Shown here in pieces: positions 11,953 to 36,119 of a stretch of DNA of 64,000 nt (position 1 is its first letter; the number at the start of each line of letters is the position of its first letter). The DNA is taken from positions 1 to 64,000 of the forward strand of contig NZ_JHVL01000013.1 in the NCBI RefSeq assembly GCF_000620125.1. Reading direction: 5' to 3'. The translations under genes and the position numbers were made by a program. This stretch comes from Clostridiisalibacter paucivorans DSM 22131. Lineage in GTDB: Bacteria; Bacillota; Clostridia; Tissierellales; Clostridiisalibacteraceae. The notes beneath the pieces were generated by a model. That model did no database searches, was not told where the DNA came from, and saw only the letters and a list, made by a program, of their open reading frames with translations.

Positions 11953-14900
11953 CTAACATATTTTTACACAATTATCCCCTAAAATTTCTGATAATTTTTC
12001 TATAAGCTCTTCATCTTTCACATTAACCCATAAGCTTCTATCAGCCATAGCTGTGGATTTATTTTTTTCCATATATACATATACTGGAGTATCTCCAGAA
12101 TATTTTCTCAATATCCCCTTTATGTTATTAAATATATTTGCTCTATGTTTAGGAGATACTTTAAGATATAATTTGGTCTTCTTCTCTGAAAAGAAAGGTG
12201 ATATCCTATCGCATATTATCTTAGGGTCATCTTCTTCGTTAATAGAAAGCCTTCCATCTATTACTATTATACTATCTTCTTTTATATATCTCCCATATCT
12301 CTCGTATACCTTAGGAAATATTATTATTTCAATACTACCATATAAGTCCTCCACAGTAGCAAATGCCATCATATTGTTATTCTTAGTTATTTTCTCTTTG
12401 ACATCGATTATTATCCCACCAAGATAGACTTTACTTCCATCCCTATAAATAGTATCAATATCTCCTTCTCCTGTATTAATACTATTGTTCAACTCATATA
12501 TTTCACTGCTATTCATAGTAGATATTTCTTCTATTTTACTGGCATACTGAGACAATGGATGTCCACTTATATATACCCCCGTCATTTCCTTTTCCATAGA
12601 TAATAATGTCCTCTCAGGAAATTCTTCTATATTAGGTAAAGTTTCATCCTTTAGATTATTGTCTTCTTGTTTAATAGTATCAAATATAGAAAACTGTCCT
12701 TCAATATTCTTCTTTCTATCATAATGGATGCCATCTAACACCCTTTCATATATGGCCAAATATTGTGCTCTATTTCCATCTAATGAGTCAAAGGCACCAC
12801 ATTTTATCAGGCTTTCAACCATTCTCTTATTTAAGCTACTTATATCTACCCTCTGACAAAAATCTGTTAACGTCTTAAATTCTCCATCTTTATTTCTTGC
12901 ATCTACTATGGCTTCAATGGCACCAATACCCACATTCTTAACTGCCGCTAATCCAAATCTTATCTTATCACCTGATACTGTAAACTTGGCATAGCTCTCG
13001 TTTATATCGGGTGGTAATATCTCTATGCCTAACTTTTTACATTCTTGTATATATAGAGATATAGATGTGGTATTACCCATTACACTGGTTAAGAGTGCCG
13101 CCATAAACTCCACAGGATAATAATACTTAAGCCATGCTGTCTCATAGGCCAATACTGCATATGCTGCCGAATGGGATTTATTAAAGGCATATTTTGCAAA
13201 ATCTATCATCTGGTCATAAATTTTATTTGCTATCTTTTCATCTACTCCGTTATTTATAGCACCAATTATTTCTTGATTGCCTTTTTCATCCTTTTTACCA
13301 TATATAAAGTGTTTTCTCTCTTGTTCCATTACATCCATCTTTTTCTTTCCCATGGCCCTTCTAACTAAATCTGATCTTCCCATGGAAAAGCCACCGATAT
13401 CCCTTACTATTTGCATAACCTGCTCTTGATATACCATACAACCATAGGTTACACCTAATATGGGTTTTAGTGTAGAATGTATATATTGAATATTCTCAGG
13501 ATTATTTTTATTTGATATATATGTTGGAATCTGTCTCATAGGACCTGGTCTAAAAAGTGAATTTGCAGCAACTATATTTTCAAACCCTGTGGGTTTTAGT
13601 TCTTTTAAAAACTGTCTCATACCAGCACTTTCAAACTGAAATACACCTAAAGTATTCCCTTCAGCAAACATCTTATAAATATTGGGATCATCATACTGAG
13701 AATTTTCAAAAGATATCTCTACATCATGATTATATTCTATAAGATGTTTTGCATCCCTTATAACAGTAAGGTTCCTGAGTCCTAAAAAGTCCATCTTCAA
13801 AAGTCCCAATTCTTCCAATTCAGTCATAGTAAATTGGGTGATTACTGCATCATTATTTCTACCCAGTGGTACATATTCTGTTATTGGCAATTTAGATATA
13901 ACTACCCCTGCTGCATGGGTAGATGTATGCCTTGGCAAACCCTCTACAGATAGTGCAATATCTATTAGCTTCTTAACCTTTATATCATTATCATAGGATT
14001 CCTTTAATTTTCGATTTACATTCAATGCCTTTTCTATGGTCATCCCCAATTCCATCGGGATTTGCTTGGCTATATAGTCAACTTCTCCATAGGACATATT
14101 AAGGGCTCTTCCTACATCCCTTATTGCCCCACGAGCAGCCATGGTACCAAAGGTTACTATCTGTGCCACTTTATCACTACCGTATTTTTTAACAACGTAA
14201 TCTATAACCTCTTCTCTTCTTTCGTAGCAAAAATCTATATCTATATCTGGCATAGTCACCCTTTCAGGATTTAAAAAACGTTCAAATATCAGATTGTATT
14301 TTATAGGGTCTATATCTATAATTCCTAATGTATAAGATACTATACTTCCTGCTGCTGAACCTCTACCTGGTCCAACCATGATTCCATTGTCCTTGGCAAA
14401 TTTTATAAAGTCCCAAACGATGAGAAAATAGTCTACATATCCCATATCTTCTATGGTCTTCATCTCATATTCTAATCTATTCTCTATTTCTTCTGTTATA
14501 TGATCATATCTCTTTTTCAATCCATCATAGCATAATTTTCTAAAGTACTCCACATTTGTATATCCCTGGGGTACTTTATATTCAGGTAAATGTAATGTAT
14601 CAAAATCTAAGTCCACATTACATCTCTCTGCTATTTTCACCGTATTACTTATAGCCTCTTTAACATTGGGAAATAATGCACTCATTTCCTCTGGAGATTT
14701 AAGATAAAACTCATCAGAAGGAAACCTCATTCTCTGTTCGTCGTCTACAGTTTTTCCAGTCTGAATGCATAATAATACATCATGTACCCTGGCATCATCT
14801 CTATCTATATAATGTACATCATTAGTTGCTACTAAAGGTATATTTAATTCTTTACTCATAGATATCAACTTTTGATTTACATATTTCTGTTCCTTCATAT

Positions 14901-21100: not shown

Positions 21101-21134
21101 AAATAAAAAGCAGCGAAATAAATTTCGCTGCTTT
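21101..21134 (-). terminator. Terminator of the pyruvate:ferredoxin oxidoreductase gene
   Basis: A perfect 12-bp stem AAAGCAGCGAAA/TTTCGCTGCTTT (21107–21118 and 21123–21134) with a 4-base loop, followed on the minus strand by TTTATTTTG. Confidence 0.93.
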
Positions 21135-21141
21135 TCTTATA

Positions 21142-24708
<3,567 letters not shown>

Positions 24709-29247: not shown

Positions 29248-30606
29248 CTATGCTGTAGCCTCTAATTCATTTGCCTTTTCCATTTCTTTATTCTTTCCAC
29301 TTCCTATTATAAAATGCAATATCAGTCCTACAGCCAATCCCCAAGCAGCTCCTTTGGTAGCTAGTACAGCACCCATAACTCCAGCCAATCCCTTTTCTTC
29401 ATTTGTTTCAGTATATTGCATGGCTATCCTAGTACAAACAAATCCTTGAACTAATAATGTCAAAGATAGTGCAATAGGCAATACAGGCTTTAACAATGAC
29501 ACTATGGGCATTAATGAAACACCTATAAAACTAGCTATTCTAAAACTTCCAAATCCTCCATATATAGAATCCATTTGATGCCTTCCCTCTTTATACCTTT
29601 CACTAACAGCTGCTGTCACTGCAGCCCATAAGGGTCCACATAATGTGGCATAGGGAACTATTATAGATTGAATGATATTTCTAGCACCACTTATAAGATT
29701 AGATCTATTGGAGTCAAAGTCTATCTTTTCATCTTTTCTGCTTTCATTTGCTTCATTTATCAATGCTTTACTAGTTATAAAGTCTCCAAAGGCTATTATA
29801 TACACTACAATTACCATAGGTAATGCAGCTATAAATATATCAACGCCTGGAAAGCCTATGCCCAATGGGCTTATGGTCTTTATAACTTCTCCAAATCTAG
29901 GCACAAATATTTCCCACTGTATATTTGGTACTGGTATTTCTTTTACTAAAACACCTATAAATAAAGACACTATTATAGCTGGTACCATTCCATATTTGCC
30001 TAAATATGACAATATATTAGATTTCACCTTTATACTCTTAAACTTTGCTGAAAATAAAATATAAAATGACAATAACCCCCCTAATGCTATAGAAATAGGA
30101 AATTCACCAAATCTTCCTCCTATGCCCATTTCCCCTGTTATAGCAGCAACACCAGCACCCAATAATATACCAGCTTTCATTGAATTGGGAATCCAGTTTA
30201 TTATTTTTCCAGCTAAACCTGTTATCCCCATTATTACAAACAATACTCCCACTAATAATTGTAATGCTATTAGTGCATGTATTCTATCTGGGCCCATTTT
30301 ATATTGTCCTAAAAACCCTAAAATCAATGGCAATGCTGGAGTTATCCAGCCTGGCACAACAGGATCTCCCATTAAAACATGTAGGTTATAAAACAATCCA
30401 TTTATTATAACCATTGTTAAAGCCACCTCAAAAGAAAATCCTAGAGTCTCAGTCATAACAGGTATCGCACCTAGACAAGTTGCACAAAGTAAGAGTCCTT
30501 GCCAAATTTCAGGCATTTCTATTTTATAGTGTATAAATGGAATTCTTATTTTAAATATTCCAAATGGAATATACGGTTGCTCTTCACCATTTTTTCTTCC
30601 TTTCAT
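29248..30606 (-). CDS. Multi-spanning permease of the 4-hydroxybutyrate operon (NCS2/SLC23-like)
   Basis: A 452-residue membrane protein with about 12 hydrophobic segments. The overall pattern (PEIWQGLLLCATCLGAIPVM, a repeated glycine-rich half such as AGILLGAGVAAITGEMGIGG, and a re-entrant-like GFPGVDIFIAALP) resembles the xanthine/uracil–ascorbate (NCS2) or sulfate permease superfamily fold. I cannot assign a substrate by motif. It is the last gene of the abfD–NifU–Cys-rich–abfT run, starting 19 bases after the abfT stop, so it may import 4-hydroxybutyrate or a related acid or export a product (inference from position). The start ATG 30606 follows GAGGGGG. No clear terminator hairpin follows its stop. 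Confidence 0.7.
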   Translation of the reverse strand: MKGRKNGEEQPYIPFGIFKIRIPFIHYKIEMPEIWQGLLLCATCLGAIPVMTETLGFSFEVALTMVIINGLFYNLHVLMGDPVVPGWITPALPLILGFLGQYKMGPDRIHALIALQLLVGVLFVIMGITGLAGKIINWIPNSMKAGILLGAGVAAITGEMGIGGRFGEFPISIALGGLLSFYILFSAKFKSIKVKSNILSYLGKYGMVPAIIVSLFIGVLVKEIPVPNIQWEIFVPRFGEVIKTISPLGIGFPGVDIFIAALPMVIVVYIIAFGDFITSKALINEANESRKDEKIDFDSNRSNLISGARNIIQSIIVPYATLCGPLWAAVTAAVSERYKEGRHQMDSIYGGFGSFRIASFIGVSLMPIVSLLKPVLPIALSLTLLVQGFVCTRIAMQYTETNEEKGLAGVMGAVLATKGAAWGLAVGLILHFIIGSGKNKEMEKANELEATA

Positions 30607-30624
30607 AAATATATCCCCCTCATT

Positions 30625-31914
30625 TTATTTAAATCGCTTTGCAAACTCATCTTTTAACTCATCTCTAAAATTAGGATGAGCAATATTGATAAGGGCCTTA
30701 GCTCTACCTCTCAATGTCTTCCCCCTTAAATCAGCTATACCATATTCAGTAACAATATAATGAACATCATTTCTTGAAGTAGTAACTGCAGAACCCTTAT
30801 TTAAAAATGGTACTATTCTTGAAGTCTTGCCTTTCCTTGCTGTGGAAGGTATGGCTATTATAGATTTCCCATCTTTGGCCATACTAGCACCTCTAACATA
30901 GTCAACCTGCCCCCCAGTCCCACTAAATTGATTTAATCCTATACTTTCAGAAGATATTTGTCCCATTAAATCTACTTCTAGGCATGAATTAATGGAAATC
31001 ATCTTATAATTTTGTGCAATGATTACAGGATTATTTACATAGTCCACAGGATATAGTTCCACAGATGGATTATTATCAATAAAATTATAAAGTCGTCTCG
31101 TCCCCATCATGAAAGTAACTACCATTTTTCCTTTATGAATAGTTTTGTTCCTATTTGTTATTACACCTGCCTCAACAAGGTCTACAACTCCATCAGAAAA
31201 CATCTCTGAATGAATCCCCAAATCTCTTTTATCCTTTAAAAACAATAATACAGCATCGGGGATTGCCCCTATTCCCAATTGTAATGTGGATCCATCATCA
31301 ATAAGAGCAGCACAGTTCTCTCCTATTGCCCTTTCGATATCACCTATTTTAGGTGCATTAAGCTCTATGAGCTCTGTTGAATTTTCAACTATATAATCCA
31401 TATTAGACACATGTATAAAATTATCACCTAAAGTTCTTGGCATCTTATCATTGACCTCTGCTATTACTAACCTTGCACATTCGCTAGCAGGCTTAGTGTA
31501 ATCATTAGATAATCCATAACTACAATATCCATGTTCATCTGGAGTACTTACCTGTATAAGTGCCACATCTACAGGTAAGTAATTATCTGTAAACAACCTA
31601 GGTATTTCATAAAAAAAGCTAGGTGTATAATCTGCCCTATTTTGATTAACTGCCTCCCTAGTAGATCCTCCAACAAAAAGGGCATTATGCCTGAAGTGTC
31701 CTCTCATTTCAGGTTTTGTATATTCACTTTTTCCCATGGCAACCATATGGACAATTTCAACATCTTCGTATTGTTCCTTATTATCTATCATGGCCTTAAC
31801 CAGTTTCGTAGGTTCACTGCATGCATGGCCTATAACTACTCTATCGCCAGACTTTATATTTTTTACTGCTTCATCAGCAGATGTCAATCTATTTTTATAA
31901 ATTCTTTTCCACAT
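30625..31914 (-). CDS. abfT: 4-hydroxybutyrate CoA-transferase
   Basis: A family I-type CoA-transferase (acetyl-CoA hydrolase/transferase), 429 residues. It transfers CoA from acetyl-CoA or butyryl-CoA to 4-hydroxybutyrate, producing the substrate of AbfD. It opens WKRIYKNRLTSADEAVKNI with VVIGHACSEP. The catalytic Glu lies in HSEMFSDGVVDLVEAG, and the oxyanion/CoA loop is FSGTGGQVDYVRGA. The start is the ATG at 31914 after GAGGGGGGAG; the frame extension to 31929 is not needed. It overlaps the small Cys-rich gene by 20 bases. Specificity for 4-hydroxybutyrate rather than another acid is supported by the operon with abfD. Confidence 0.92.
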   Translation of the reverse strand: MWKRIYKNRLTSADEAVKNIKSGDRVVIGHACSEPTKLVKAMIDNKEQYEDVEIVHMVAMGKSEYTKPEMRGHFRHNALFVGGSTREAVNQNRADYTPSFFYEIPRLFTDNYLPVDVALIQVSTPDEHGYCSYGLSNDYTKPASECARLVIAEVNDKMPRTLGDNFIHVSNMDYIVENSTELIELNAPKIGDIERAIGENCAALIDDGSTLQLGIGAIPDAVLLFLKDKRDLGIHSEMFSDGVVDLVEAGVITNRNKTIHKGKMVVTFMMGTRRLYNFIDNNPSVELYPVDYVNNPVIIAQNYKMISINSCLEVDLMGQISSESIGLNQFSGTGGQVDYVRGASMAKDGKSIIAIPSTARKGKTSRIVPFLNKGSAVTTSRNDVHYIVTEYGIADLRGKTLRGRAKALINIAHPNFRDELKDEFAKRFK

Positions 31915-32188
31915 AATCTCCCCCCTCATGCCTTAACATATTTATCTTTTTAAATATATCTTCATAACAATCTCTACTGTCTACTTTTATCTTCCACTGG
32001 CACAAAATTCTATCACTATTTGCACAAGCACTTGTGCACCCACACACTATAATCAACACACCATAATACTCATTTTCTCTAGCTACAAAAAATTTATCTT
32101 CTGTTAATATATCCTTTATATATTTTACAAACCTTTTTCTATTGTATTTGGGATTACAACCACCACAATACTTTATACCTATATTCAC
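31895..32188 (-). CDS. Small Cys-rich protein of the 4-hydroxybutyrate operon
   Basis: A 97-residue soluble protein that I do not recognise by name. It has two cysteine clusters: YCGGCNPKYNRKRF at residues 7–20 and VCGCTSACAN at about 48–57. These six cysteines in CxxC/CxCxxxC arrays suggest metal or Fe–S binding. The CGGCNPxYxR motif appears to be a recurrent family signature in anaerobes (my recollection, not checked). It lies 11 bases after the NifU-like gene and overlaps the start of abfT by 20 bases, so it is translated with them. A role in assembling or repairing the AbfD iron–sulfur cluster is possible but unproven. Confidence 0.8.
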   Translation of the reverse strand: MNIGIKYCGGCNPKYNRKRFVKYIKDILTEDKFFVARENEYYGVLIIVCGCTSACANSDRILCQWKIKVDSRDCYEDIFKKINMLRHEGGDYVEKNL

Positions 32189-32199
32189 ATCATTTCTCC

Positions 32200-32478
32200 T
32201 TATAGAGATTTGTTTAAAATTTTTTTTGCCATATCAATAAGCTCTGGACTCACTTCTCTAGATATAACAACTTCATTGACCCATGGAAACTCTTCCTTTA
32301 ACTTTTGTTCAATAAAATCCTTTGTAGTCATATCAGAATGGGGACACCCACTACATGCACCCAATAATTTTATCCTGACTACTCCATTTTTAACTTCTAA
32401 AAGTCTTACATCCCCATTATGACTTATTAACCTAGGTCTTATTTTTTCTTCAAGTATTTCCTTCACTTTGTCAACCAT
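32200..32478 (-). CDS. NifU C-terminal-domain Fe–S scaffold protein
   Basis: A 92-residue stand-alone NifU-C (Nfu) domain. VRLLEVKNGVVRIKLLGACSGCPHSDMTT contains the CxxC pair that holds a transferable [4Fe-4S] cluster between two subunits. The family carries clusters to apo-enzymes. Position between abfD, a [4Fe-4S] dehydratase, and abfT suggests a dedicated carrier for AbfD. It starts at ATG 32478 and is separated from abfD by ~100 bases containing a long hairpin. The normal Nfu length is about 75–95 residues, so it is complete. Confidence 0.9.
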   Translation of the reverse strand: MVDKVKEILEEKIRPRLISHNGDVRLLEVKNGVVRIKLLGACSGCPHSDMTTKDFIEQKLKEEFPWVNEVVISREVSPELIDMAKKILNKSL

Positions 32479-32577: not shown

Positions 32578-34032
32578 TTATTTTTCTATTTTGGCTATAT
32601 TTTTAGCTAAATCTTTTTTGTGTTCTAAATTACCTTGTCTCCATATCATTACTCTCTGTGCTTGAGGAGACCCTGCTCCATGCATTGATTCTGTTCTATA
32701 TCCTACCGCTGCAGTACCCAGTGTCATATTTTCAATTAATCTTAATATTTTCATACGATCCATAGTAGGTACATTTGCATTACCTTTAAAGTATTTTTCA
32801 CATATGGGTCCTATTTCTGGGTGTTTGAAATCCTTTTCAGATGGCATAGTAACCATTAATCCCCCTGCAATATCTTCAGCTAATCGGGCTATCTCATAAG
32901 GGAATCTCGTAACATTCTGTTTACATATATTCGCCAATAACATATCTATTTGGTAATTCCCCGATTGTGTAGCATAGCCCTCTGAAGAACATGCTATACC
33001 ACAACAGTATAGAGTTTCATTTAGATGCATCATCTCTATAAGTTTATCCTTTATATGAGATGCCTTAGGCACTCCATTATATTCCGCAGCCAATGCAGCA
33101 GCTCCTATTAATACATCACCAACTCCTACTTTACAGCCACCATAACTTTGTCTATGATATCCTGCAAATCTTTCTACTAACATACCTGCAAATTCTGTCT
33201 CTCCATTTAAAAATATTCTCTCATTGGGTACAAAGACATCATCAAATACCACCAATGCCTCTTGCCCTCCAAATTCACTATTACCCACATCCATTTGTAC
33301 ATCTTCTTCCAGCTTTCTAGTATCACATGACTGACGGCCATATATCATGAAAACTCCATCTGCATCTGTAGGTATAGCAAAGGACACAGCATAATCTTTG
33401 TCATCGGGTCCCATCGCTATTGTAGGCATGATTAAATGCTCATGGGAATTAATGCTACCTGTTTGATGTACCTTTGCCCCCCTTACTACAATACCGTCAT
33501 TCCTTCTTTCTACTACATGGACAAACATATCTGGATCCTCTTGTTTACTAGGGGCTAAACCTCTATCTCCTTTGGGATCTGTCATTGCTCCATCCACTGT
33601 CCAATCCTTTTGTTGAACCTCTTTCATGTATTTTGTAAAATTCTTATGATAATTAGTCCCATATTTTTCATCTGTTTCATAAGTAGTACTAAAAACTGCA
33701 TTAAAGGCATCCATCCCAACACATCTTTGAAAGCATGATGCCGTTTTTTGTCCCAATAATCTTTGCATTTTTACTTTTTTAACTAAATCTTCAGTACTTT
33801 GATGTAAATGACAGAACCTATTTACCTTTTCTCCTGTTAAATTAGATGTAGCTGTCATCAAATCTTCATATTGTGGATCATGGGCCAATTCATATGTCAT
33901 TGCCACTGAATTAATAGATGGACGAATTATCGGATGGTCTACTGGATTCTCCACCAACTCTCCAAACATATAAACCTTTATGTCTAAACTTCTAAGACTT
34001 TCAATATACTCTTTCCCTGTCATAAGTGCCAT
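32578..34032 (-). CDS. abfD: 4-hydroxybutyryl-CoA dehydratase / vinylacetyl-CoA isomerase
   Basis: A [4Fe-4S]- and FAD-dependent enzyme that dehydrates 4-hydroxybutyryl-CoA to crotonyl-CoA by a ketyl-radical route and isomerises vinylacetyl-CoA. It is 484 residues. The four cluster ligands known for the Clostridium aminobutyricum enzyme (C99, C103, H292, C299) are all present, shifted by one for the initiator Met: C100 and C104 in ASCFQRCVG, H293 and C300 in GYHRQSYGGC. The fold is acyl-CoA-dehydrogenase-like. The start is ATG 34032 behind GGGAGG, although the frame is open to 34071. It is the first gene of the operon, with a sigma-54-type promoter at 34105–34120. Confidence 0.97.
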   Translation of the reverse strand: MALMTGKEYIESLRSLDIKVYMFGELVENPVDHPIIRPSINSVAMTYELAHDPQYEDLMTATSNLTGEKVNRFCHLHQSTEDLVKKVKMQRLLGQKTASCFQRCVGMDAFNAVFSTTYETDEKYGTNYHKNFTKYMKEVQQKDWTVDGAMTDPKGDRGLAPSKQEDPDMFVHVVERRNDGIVVRGAKVHQTGSINSHEHLIMPTIAMGPDDKDYAVSFAIPTDADGVFMIYGRQSCDTRKLEEDVQMDVGNSEFGGQEALVVFDDVFVPNERIFLNGETEFAGMLVERFAGYHRQSYGGCKVGVGDVLIGAAALAAEYNGVPKASHIKDKLIEMMHLNETLYCCGIACSSEGYATQSGNYQIDMLLANICKQNVTRFPYEIARLAEDIAGGLMVTMPSEKDFKHPEIGPICEKYFKGNANVPTMDRMKILRLIENMTLGTAAVGYRTESMHGAGSPQAQRVMIWRQGNLEHKKDLAKNIAKIEK

Positions 34033-34104
34033 TTTAACAACCTCCCTAACATAATTTAATTTTGATATCAAGATAGCTATCTTTTATTCTCACTTAATTA
34101 ATAT

Positions 34105-34120
34105 TGCAATTGATATGCCA
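34105..34120 (-). promoter_or_regulatory. Sigma-54 (-24/-12) promoter of the abfD operon
   Basis: The minus strand reads TGGCATATCAATTGCA. The GG and GC are 12 bases apart, as required, and the match to TGGCAC-N5-TTGCA is close. It lies about 70 bases before the abfD ATG, next to a gene for a sigma-54 activator. Confidence 0.8.
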
Positions 34121-34217
34121 TTTTTTTAACAAAGTTAATTATTTTTTATTTGTCCTCATTAAATGACTGTATTTTCAGTATCTTCATTTAATAAAAAACC
34201 AAAACAAATCCTATATT

Positions 34218-34277
34218 TTCAAAAAACAAAGAGAAATTCGTTGCGATATCGCAACGAATTTCTCTTCGTTTTTTGAA
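34218..34277 (-). terminator. 60-base inverted repeat: terminator of the sigma-54 activator gene and/or activator site
   Basis: Positions 34229–34266 form a perfect 38-bp palindrome. After one mismatch the pairing continues to 34218 and 34277. On the minus strand the perfect part is followed by TTGTTTTTTG, so the RNA hairpin could end the activator transcript. Its centre (34241–34254, TTGCGATATCGCAA) is also the best of three dyads matching TTGC-N6-GCAA. Confidence 0.7.
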
Positions 34278-34322
34278 TTCTTAATATGAAATCATTGAAT
34301 TTAAAGCTATATATACCCTTGT

Positions 34323-34355
34323 TTGCATATATGCATTTTTATTGCATTATTGCAA
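34323..34355. promoter_or_regulatory. Pair of TTGC-N6-GCAA dyads, candidate enhancer sites for the sigma-54 activator
   Basis: TTGCATATATGCAT (34323–34336) and TTGCATTATTGCAA (34342–34355) are dyads whose centres are 19 bases apart, about two helical turns. They lie roughly 205–235 bases upstream of the -24/-12 promoter, within the normal range for enhancer-binding proteins. The same dyad recurs at 34241–34254. Binding by the neighbouring activator is inferred. Confidence 0.6.
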
Positions 34356-34358
34356 CAT

Positions 34359-36119
34359 CTATTTTTCATATTTTTTCCTCTTTCTCACAAATGTAGAAGG
34401 ATCTATGTCTAAAGCCCTAGCAGCATCCCTGACATTACCATATTTTTCATATGACCTCTCTAGCAAATTTTTTTCTACAATGGAAACTGCCCTTTTTATA
34501 GGGATTATATCATCACAGAATTCAAATCTTGGCCTATTCTTTTTATTGAGTATTTTTCTAGGTAAGTCTTTACAATTTATCTCATCGCCACTACTCATTG
34601 CTGTTATTCTTTCTATAACATTTTTTAGTTCCCTTACATTTCCTGGCCATTGGTAGTCATAAATAGCATCCATAACATCTCTGGCTAAAGATTTATTCCA
34701 TCCATATTTTTCGTTTATATTCATTAAAAAATATCTAGTCAATTCTATTATATCCTGCTTTCTCTCTCTAAGTGGAGGAATATTTATAGGAATTACATTT
34801 AATCTATAAAATAGATCTTCTCTAAATAGCTTCTGTTTTACCATCTTTTCTAAATCCCTATTAGTGGCAGAAATTATCCTCACATCTATCTTTATGGATT
34901 TCACTCCCCCAACCCTTTTGACTTCATTTTCTTGAAGTACCCTCAAAAGTTTTACCTGCATATTTAGTGGCAATTCTCCTATCTCATCTAAAAATAAGGT
35001 TCCTCCATTAGCAACCTCAAAAAGTCCCATCTTTCCATCTTTATTTGCACCAGTAAATGCCCCTTGTTCATATCCAAAGAGTTCAGATTCTATTAGATTT
35101 TCTGGTATAGCACCACAATTTACTTTTATAAATGGCTTTTCAAGTCTGTTACTATTCTTGTGTATGAATTTGGCCACAACCTCTTTTCCAACTCCACTTT
35201 CACCAAAAAGTAATACTGTAATATCAGTTATTGCCGCCTTTTTAGCACGATAAAGAATATCTAACATTTTTTTATCCTTTACCACAAGACCTGATGTGTC
35301 TAGATATTGATTTTTTAGTTCTTTAATCTCCCAATAATATTTTTCAGCTAACTTTTCCTGTACTTGCAGTTCACTTTTTAGTTTATACAGCTCAGTGACA
35401 TCCCTTACATTAGTTATCACTATAATTATATTTCCTTTTTCATCAAATACTGGTCTACTGGTAATCAATGCCTTCTTCCCTGTCTTAAACTCTTGATTTA
35501 AAGAAATAGTCTGTCTTTTCTCTATTGATAAAAGAGAACCTGACTTTGATATATAACCCTCTTTCACAAGGTCTTTCATATTTCTATCAATTAGATTCGC
35601 CCTTTTCAGCCCTGTTATTCTCTCATATGATTCATTAACTCTGATAGTTTTTCCTTTTCCATCTGTAATATATATCCCATCATAGGAATACTCTATAGTT
35701 CTATCCAATCTTTTAGATAACTTTCTATTAATTTCTAGCTCCTTTAATATCTTTTCAAAGGAAGTTATATCTTGAAATAAGATAGTAGCTCCCCATAATT
35801 TGTCATCTATTCTCAACGGAATAAAATCATATATTAGTAATTTCCCTTTATACCTGATTTTCTCTTTATATATACTATTAAATTCTTTCAATATATTTTT
35901 CTCTATTCTGAATTTTTCAAATATATCTGAGATATGACTATCTTTCACATCATACTTGTCAACCCCCAATATCTTTAAAGCCGTCTTATTAAAACATGAT
36001 ATAATTCCATCCTTATCAATTGTAACTATCCCATTGCTGGAAGATTGTATTATTGTTCGAAGTTTTTTAAGTTCATATTGTATTGATAATTTATCTGCAT
36101 TACTCTCGCCCATCCCCAT
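34359..36119 (-). CDS. Sigma-54-dependent transcriptional activator with two PAS domains
   Basis: An enhancer-binding protein of 586 residues. PAS domains lie at about 20–125 and 142–250 (ATILFQDITSFEKI; ITNVRDVTELYKLK mark their ends). The AAA+ domain spans 280–520 with Walker A GESGVGKE at 306–313, the sigma-54 contact loop GAFTGA at 353–358, Walker B GGTLFLDEIGELP, and the arginine-finger region LFREDLFYRLNV. A Fis-type HTH ends the protein (NVRDAARALDIDPSTFVRKR, 562–581). The start is ATG 36119 after GGAGGGGG. It has no receiver domain, so it probably senses a small molecule or redox state through PAS. It lies directly beside the abfD operon, its likely target, with the liv operon on the other side as an alternative. 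Confidence 0.94.
   Translation of the reverse strand: MGMGESNADKLSIQYELKKLRTIIQSSSNGIVTIDKDGIISCFNKTALKILGVDKYDVKDSHISDIFEKFRIEKNILKEFNSIYKEKIRYKGKLLIYDFIPLRIDDKLWGATILFQDITSFEKILKELEINRKLSKRLDRTIEYSYDGIYITDGKGKTIRVNESYERITGLKRANLIDRNMKDLVKEGYISKSGSLLSIEKRQTISLNQEFKTGKKALITSRPVFDEKGNIIIVITNVRDVTELYKLKSELQVQEKLAEKYYWEIKELKNQYLDTSGLVVKDKKMLDILYRAKKAAITDITVLLFGESGVGKEVVAKFIHKNSNRLEKPFIKVNCGAIPENLIESELFGYEQGAFTGANKDGKMGLFEVANGGTLFLDEIGELPLNMQVKLLRVLQENEVKRVGGVKSIKIDVRIISATNRDLEKMVKQKLFREDLFYRLNVIPINIPPLRERKQDIIELTRYFLMNINEKYGWNKSLARDVMDAIYDYQWPGNVRELKNVIERITAMSSGDEINCKDLPRKILNKKNRPRFEFCDDIIPIKRAVSIVEKNLLERSYEKYGNVRDAARALDIDPSTFVRKRKKYEK

Follow-up and report, generated by a model that had tools for sequence, protein, structure and literature searches.

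A predicted XanR-type sigma-54 module for 4-hydroxybutyrate genes, with a putative enhancer site at the centre of a terminator-like hairpin

Introduction

In Clostridium, XanR has been predicted to be the sigma-54 activator of an abfD-nifU-hyp-ach-golB operon, with a UAS and a sigma-54 promoter predicted upstream of that target, and acp-caiC-luxEC has been given as a second XanR target (Nie, Dong and Yang 2019, PMC6615313, Table 1). The accessible part of the same study places UASs in Clostridiales 100-250 bp upstream and at multiple sites, gives the UAS of another activator, PrdR, as TGT-N10-12-ACA, and includes Clostridium drakei among its species (PMC6615313).

The DNA analysed here (hereafter the window, a stretch of 64 kb from Clostridiisalibacter paucivorans DSM 22131) carries a sigma-54 activator gene next to abfD. 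A reading made from the sequence alone (the sequence-only reading) had proposed that the two belong to a local sigma-54 module for 4-hydroxybutyrate genes, and rpoN, the conservation of the dyads between the genes and the association of the promoter with the activator all support that prediction. The parts of the module, their conservation and the co-change of the activator's recognition helix with the dyads were observed in silico.

Results

The activator gene (34359..36119, minus strand) was identified from its translation and domain profiles and encodes a predicted sigma-54 activator (bEBP) of 586 aa. Profile search placed PAS domains at residues 19-75 and 147-243, Sigma54_activat at 279-445 and HTH_8 at 547-584. 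The AAA+ sigma-54 interaction domain scored 246.5 bits against PF00158 (cut-off 20.2), as expected of a bEBP, the C-terminal Fis-type HTH scored 25.5 bits against HTH_8 (cut-off 22), and GAFTGA is present in the translation, as are the Walker motifs with GESGVGKE and DEIGE; the PAS–PAS–AAA+–Fis activator with a GAFTGA loop that the sequence-only reading had placed beside abfD is thus found in both domains and loop. The nearest curated model is NF041552 (PrdR, NCBIfam), against which the protein scored 467.7 bits, and PrdR was ruled out as its identity because this is well below the 795-bit cut-off of that model. The 3.25-Mb genome contains about 28 sigma-54 activator genes.

Immediately beyond the activator, on the same minus strand, lies abfD (32578..34032), predicted from a PDB match and profile search to encode 4-hydroxybutyryl-CoA dehydratase/vinylacetyl-CoA isomerase. 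Its best PDB match, 1u8v, extends over the full length (E 9e-254), far stronger than any match to an HpaB-type hydroxylase. Alignment to 1u8v shows that C99, C103, H292 and C299 (1u8v numbering), the [4Fe-4S] ligands of that enzyme, are all conserved, and by these similarities the gene downstream of the promoter is a genuine abfD. The predicted operon continues on the minus strand with genes for a NifU-like protein (32200..32478; profile search and recurring gene order), a small conserved protein of 97 aa, ‘hyp’ (31895..32188; recurring gene order), a 4-hydroxybutyrate CoA-transferase (ach/abfT, 30625..31914; PDB 3eh7 and 3gk7) and a membrane transporter similar to PurT (29248..30606; PDB match and gene order), the last a frequent operon partner. 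‘Hyp’ matched no Pfam family above cut-off and showed a weak, sub-threshold similarity to SeleniumBinding; the membrane protein likewise matched no Pfam family above cut-off, and PurT (7tak) was its sole PDB match. In many genomes the PurT-like protein adjoins abfD and the CoA-transferase, sometimes being placed between activator and abfD, and it may bring 4-hydroxybutyrate or some related acid into the cell. The label “4-hydroxybutyrate metabolism” suits the operon, which encodes a CoA-transferase for 4-hydroxybutyrate as well as 4-hydroxybutyryl-CoA dehydratase.

Pattern scans, together with the association with a tandem activator described below, identified a -24/-12 promoter, TGGCATATCAATTGCA (34105..34120, minus strand), that reads into abfD with an expected start near 34094. 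It is the sole zero-mismatch match to TGGCAYNNNNNTTGCW within the window and one of 23 matches in the genome to a strict pattern (TGGCAY-N5-TTGCW, spacing fixed), the reversed control pattern giving 0. The -24/-12 promoter that had been read as pointing toward abfD is therefore an exact match, and the next gene is a true abfD. A search for rpoN, which the sequence-only reading had suggested as a check, found one copy in the genome; with this gene and both elements at their fixed spacing, the site qualifies as a sigma-54 promoter. Sigma-70-like matches near abfD occur at chance level.

The gap between activator and abfD is about 326 bp and contains three dyads, listed without strand, that we regard as putative UASs. 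UAS1 (34342..34355) is a perfect TTGC-N6-GCAA dyad, TTGCATTATTGCAA, directly past the activator stop codon; it was called from the genome count and from its position, which is kept in relatives. UAS2 (34323..34336), TTGC-ATATAT-GCAT, was called from its sequence and from a spacing that recurs in relatives, and UAS3 (34241..34254) is a second perfect dyad, TTGCGATATCGCAA, called from the genome count and the hairpin comparison given below. Three TTGC-N6-GCAA dyads had been reported in this gap; those at 34241 and 34342 are perfect, and the one at 34323 does not strictly fit because it ends in GCAT, a single mismatch. The reported 19-base distance between the centres of the dyads at 34323 and 34342 (UAS2 and UAS1) is correct, and a spacing of 17-21 bp recurs in relatives. 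A shuffle test confined to the window found 2 perfect dyads against a mean of 0.58, with 11 of 100 shuffles reaching 2, and is weak alone; we therefore used the whole genome and relatives. Perfect dyads number 17 in the 3.25-Mb genome, and 2 of them fall in the activator-abfD gap (0.002 expected); none of the others comes as close as 1 kb to a strict sigma-54 promoter. The consensus GTTGCA-N4-TGCAAC is, from these sequence comparisons, a well-supported candidate for the activator binding motif.

Loci containing abfD came from named genomes and from genome searches at the level of order and class. The gene order activator, abfD, nifU, hyp, CoA-transferase, permease is common to many of them, the module has been kept in many genera, and its layout is found again in dozens of relatives; in Clostridium drakei (L034) the order is as here and the activator is 57% identical. 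Of 36 loci whose activator is in tandem, 28 have a promoter within about 300 bp of abfD, versus 9 of 53 loci that have no activator within 5 kb. For the dyad comparison we used the 47 loci in which the promoter lies 100-560 bp past the activator stop codon. Their activator-to-promoter gaps hold 33 perfect dyads, compared with 0.58 in dinucleotide shuffles, and the N6 spacing that accounts for these 33 stands out from spacings of 2-5 and 7-13, which gave 0-2 each. The geometry recurs: close to the stop codon lie two dyads at a spacing of 17-21 bp, a third usually follows some 50-120 bp beyond them, and the promoter comes last. Even with one mismatch allowed, 11 of the 47 loci contain no dyad of the TTGC-N6-GCAA type, and 3 contain a single one. 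Loss of the dyads from relatives that keep the activator-abfD pair had been named as evidence that would speak against the module; most such relatives keep them.

Among the relatives compared, a recognition helix of the STFVRKR type goes with TTGC-N6-GCAA dyads. Where the dyad is lost or altered, the recognition helix of the activator is usually altered too, which ties the dyads to the neighbouring activator. Sites in the clade with an ATLLRRK-type helix (L076-L079 and L087) read GTTTCA-N4-TGAAAC or similar, and those of L151 and L153 fall between the two types. The link is imperfect, because L036, L042 and L088, whose helix is of the VDRTTVFRK type, also show TTGC-N6-GCAA. With their different helix and GTTTCA-N4-TGAAAC-like sites, the abfD activators of L076-L079 and L087 constitute a natural specificity switch.

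UAS3 is also the exact centre of a hairpin, a feature absent from the sequence-only reading. Hairpin scanning and folding located this structure at 34226..34269 on the minus strand, with a stem of 20 bp by count and about 28 bp in the fold (-42.9 kcal/mol, z -10.2), followed by TTTTTT; a stable stem-loop and then a T run on the coding strand is what characterizes an intrinsic terminator, and we predict that the activator transcript ends here. The hairpin starts 89 bases past the activator stop codon, which is far for a terminator and looks as if the UAS might set the terminator's place.

To compare loci, a strong terminator was required to have a stem of at least 11 and a T run and to lie within the gap. 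Dyads and a strong terminator occur together in the gap at 18 of the 47 loci, and in 10 of these 18 a dyad forms the exact centre of the strongest terminator, versus 0.22 (maximum 2 in 100) when the dyads were kept and the remaining gap sequence was shuffled. Putative enhancer site and predicted terminator are therefore often one palindrome. In L016 the terminator is offset by 2.5 bases from the dyad, in L144 its centre is a degraded dyad, in L068 the dyad pairs with its degraded second copy, and in L053 the terminator is elsewhere in the gap. Mapped onto the activator tree, the exact-apex state, counted as present in the ten loci and L144, requires at least eight changes. Hairpins made by two neighbouring dyads, seen in the other 4 of the 18 loci, are not claimed as a signal, since their number is not clearly above the null (mean 1.5, maximum 4). 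A similarly placed third site resembling TTGC-N6-GCAA was present in L031, L126, L154-L157 and L164, where no strong terminator was found, and the site is thus not a mere by-product of termination.

Without selection on hairpins, at least 8 consecutive flanking pairs were present at 13 of 91 dyads, all others having 0-6. The arms were paired in 88 of 88 cases at loci chosen for having stems, so that only differences between loci are informative there: the arms vary in sequence between loci yet stay paired, and the close relatives L036 and L042 differ by a compensatory A-T to T-A arm change. RNAfold pairs enclosing the dyad numbered 12.5, versus 10.0 with shuffled flanks, a measure that discriminates weakly and is not used as proof.

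In the genome, 12 of the 22 other strict promoters directly follow an activator gene that is read from the same strand. Within these 12 tandem modules, UAS/terminator overlap was clear in one (L184) and suggestive in one (L175). The L184 module (L184/L192, contig C81, ~21125-21250), whose targets are a permease and two amidohydrolase-type enzymes, has two copies of GATGAA-N4-TTCATC past the activator stop codon, the second of which forms a terminator hairpin. In L175 (contig C13, ~12550-12718) the terminator apex resembles a nearby dyad at 13 of 16 bases, which is suggestive only. We do not claim that the overlap is general, because one module of 12 is clear and the L184 module was not found beside relatives of its permease.

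Discussion

We consider it highly probable, from sequence and its comparison, that the locus is a local XanR-type sigma-54 module with three UAS dyads that controls the abfD operon, and that the dyad at 34241 also acts as a terminator. Binding, looping, termination and signal are predictions. An intracellular signal would be sensed by the PAS domains of the XanR-type PAS-PAS-AAA+-Fis activator, which would bind the three dyads of the GTTGCA-N4-TGCAAC type in the stretch from the end of its gene to abfD and loop to sigma-54 RNA polymerase at TGGCATATCAATTGCA, with abfD transcription starting near 34094. The activated promoter would drive abfD-nifU-hyp-abfT(-permease), AbfD and the 4-hydroxybutyrate CoA-transferase would convert 4-hydroxybutyrate to crotonyl-CoA, and the PurT-like membrane protein may import a substrate. 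The 34241 palindrome would serve as an enhancer site in DNA and as the activator-transcript terminator in RNA; by ending that transcript, the hairpin would hold abfD off when activator is lacking and should insulate abfD from read-through. Very probably, this self-contained sigma-54 switch activates the adjacent genes of 4-hydroxybutyrate fermentation.

A very stable, T-tailed hairpin with the 34241 dyad at its apex would alone explain an inverted repeat, and the dyad could be a terminator stem only, leaving the pair at 34323 and 34342 as the enhancer. We think this unlikely, because nothing would lead a random terminator to have TTGC-N6-GCAA exactly in its middle, as is seen in 10 loci against a null of 0.22, and because L031, L126, L154-L157 and L164 have a similar third site with no strong terminator found there. 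The opposite reading, that the long inverted repeat is an extended DNA operator or a cruciform and not a terminator, would fit its near-perfect palindromy and the A/T tracts on either side, yet it seems quite unlikely to us given that the arms vary between relatives and remain complementary, the A-T to T-A change between L036 and L042 included, and that a T run (which the scan required) follows the ten exact-centre hairpins on the activator strand.

The dyads might instead be bound by some protein other than the neighbouring activator, such as a global regulator or a repressor, as the few loci that pair the dyad with activators of a different helix type could suggest. Such a protein would not account for a dyad sequence that shifts along with the activator recognition helix, for the rarity of the dyad in the genome and the absence of further perfect copies less than 1 kb from a strict sigma-54 promoter, or for a position and multiplicity that match Clostridiales UAS practice as described in the accessible part of PMC6615313, and we regard it as highly improbable. 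Scarcely credible is a fortuitous circuit, in which a housekeeping promoter expresses abfD and the activator controls something else: the nearby sigma-70-like matches that it could draw on are at chance level, whereas the sigma-54 promoter is tied to the tandem activator (28/36 versus 9/53) and many genera have kept the module.

If the 34241 element is both enhancer site and terminator, the two roles might also be coupled, with bound activator altering termination (or the hairpin or a cruciform altering occupancy) and a resulting feedback between activator level and abfD read-through, an arrangement that might have arisen repeatedly in XanR-type and occasionally in other sigma-54 modules. We offer this as a speculative extension, and a doubtful one. 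GTTGCA-N4-TGCAAC and the three-site geometry provide a candidate target for the activator of a key step in the anaerobic conversion of 4-hydroxybutyrate to butyrate. The overlap of enhancer site and terminator suggests that, where activator and target stand in tandem with a compact gap between them, a single palindrome can carry two functions, and it cautions that an inverted repeat set aside as a terminator may be a regulator site as well.

The AbfD protein is alike over its full length, with all cluster ligands, to that of Clostridium aminobutyricum (1u8v), and there is no difference of weight. The activator resembles PrdR in its proposed role, activation of a fermentation operon in Clostridia, but the TTGC-N6-GCAA dyads differ from TGT-N10-12-ACA, the PrdR UAS in the accessible part of PMC6615313. 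With the XanR regulon the locus shares the abfD-nifU-hyp-ach operon and the adjacent activator; the fifth gene may differ, being a PurT-like transporter here and golB in the XanR operon. By gene order, the locus is very probably a member of the XanR regulon, as far as the accessible part of that study defines it, outside Clostridium. A limited open-access literature search found no report of a sigma-54 UAS inside a terminator, and the accessible text of Nie et al. 2019 (PMC6615313) makes no mention of UAS/terminator overlap. Thus, the kind of circuit is already known, its regulon type having been predicted earlier in Clostridium (PMC6615313), and the predicted dual use of one palindrome, as enhancer site and terminator, is a new part of the module.
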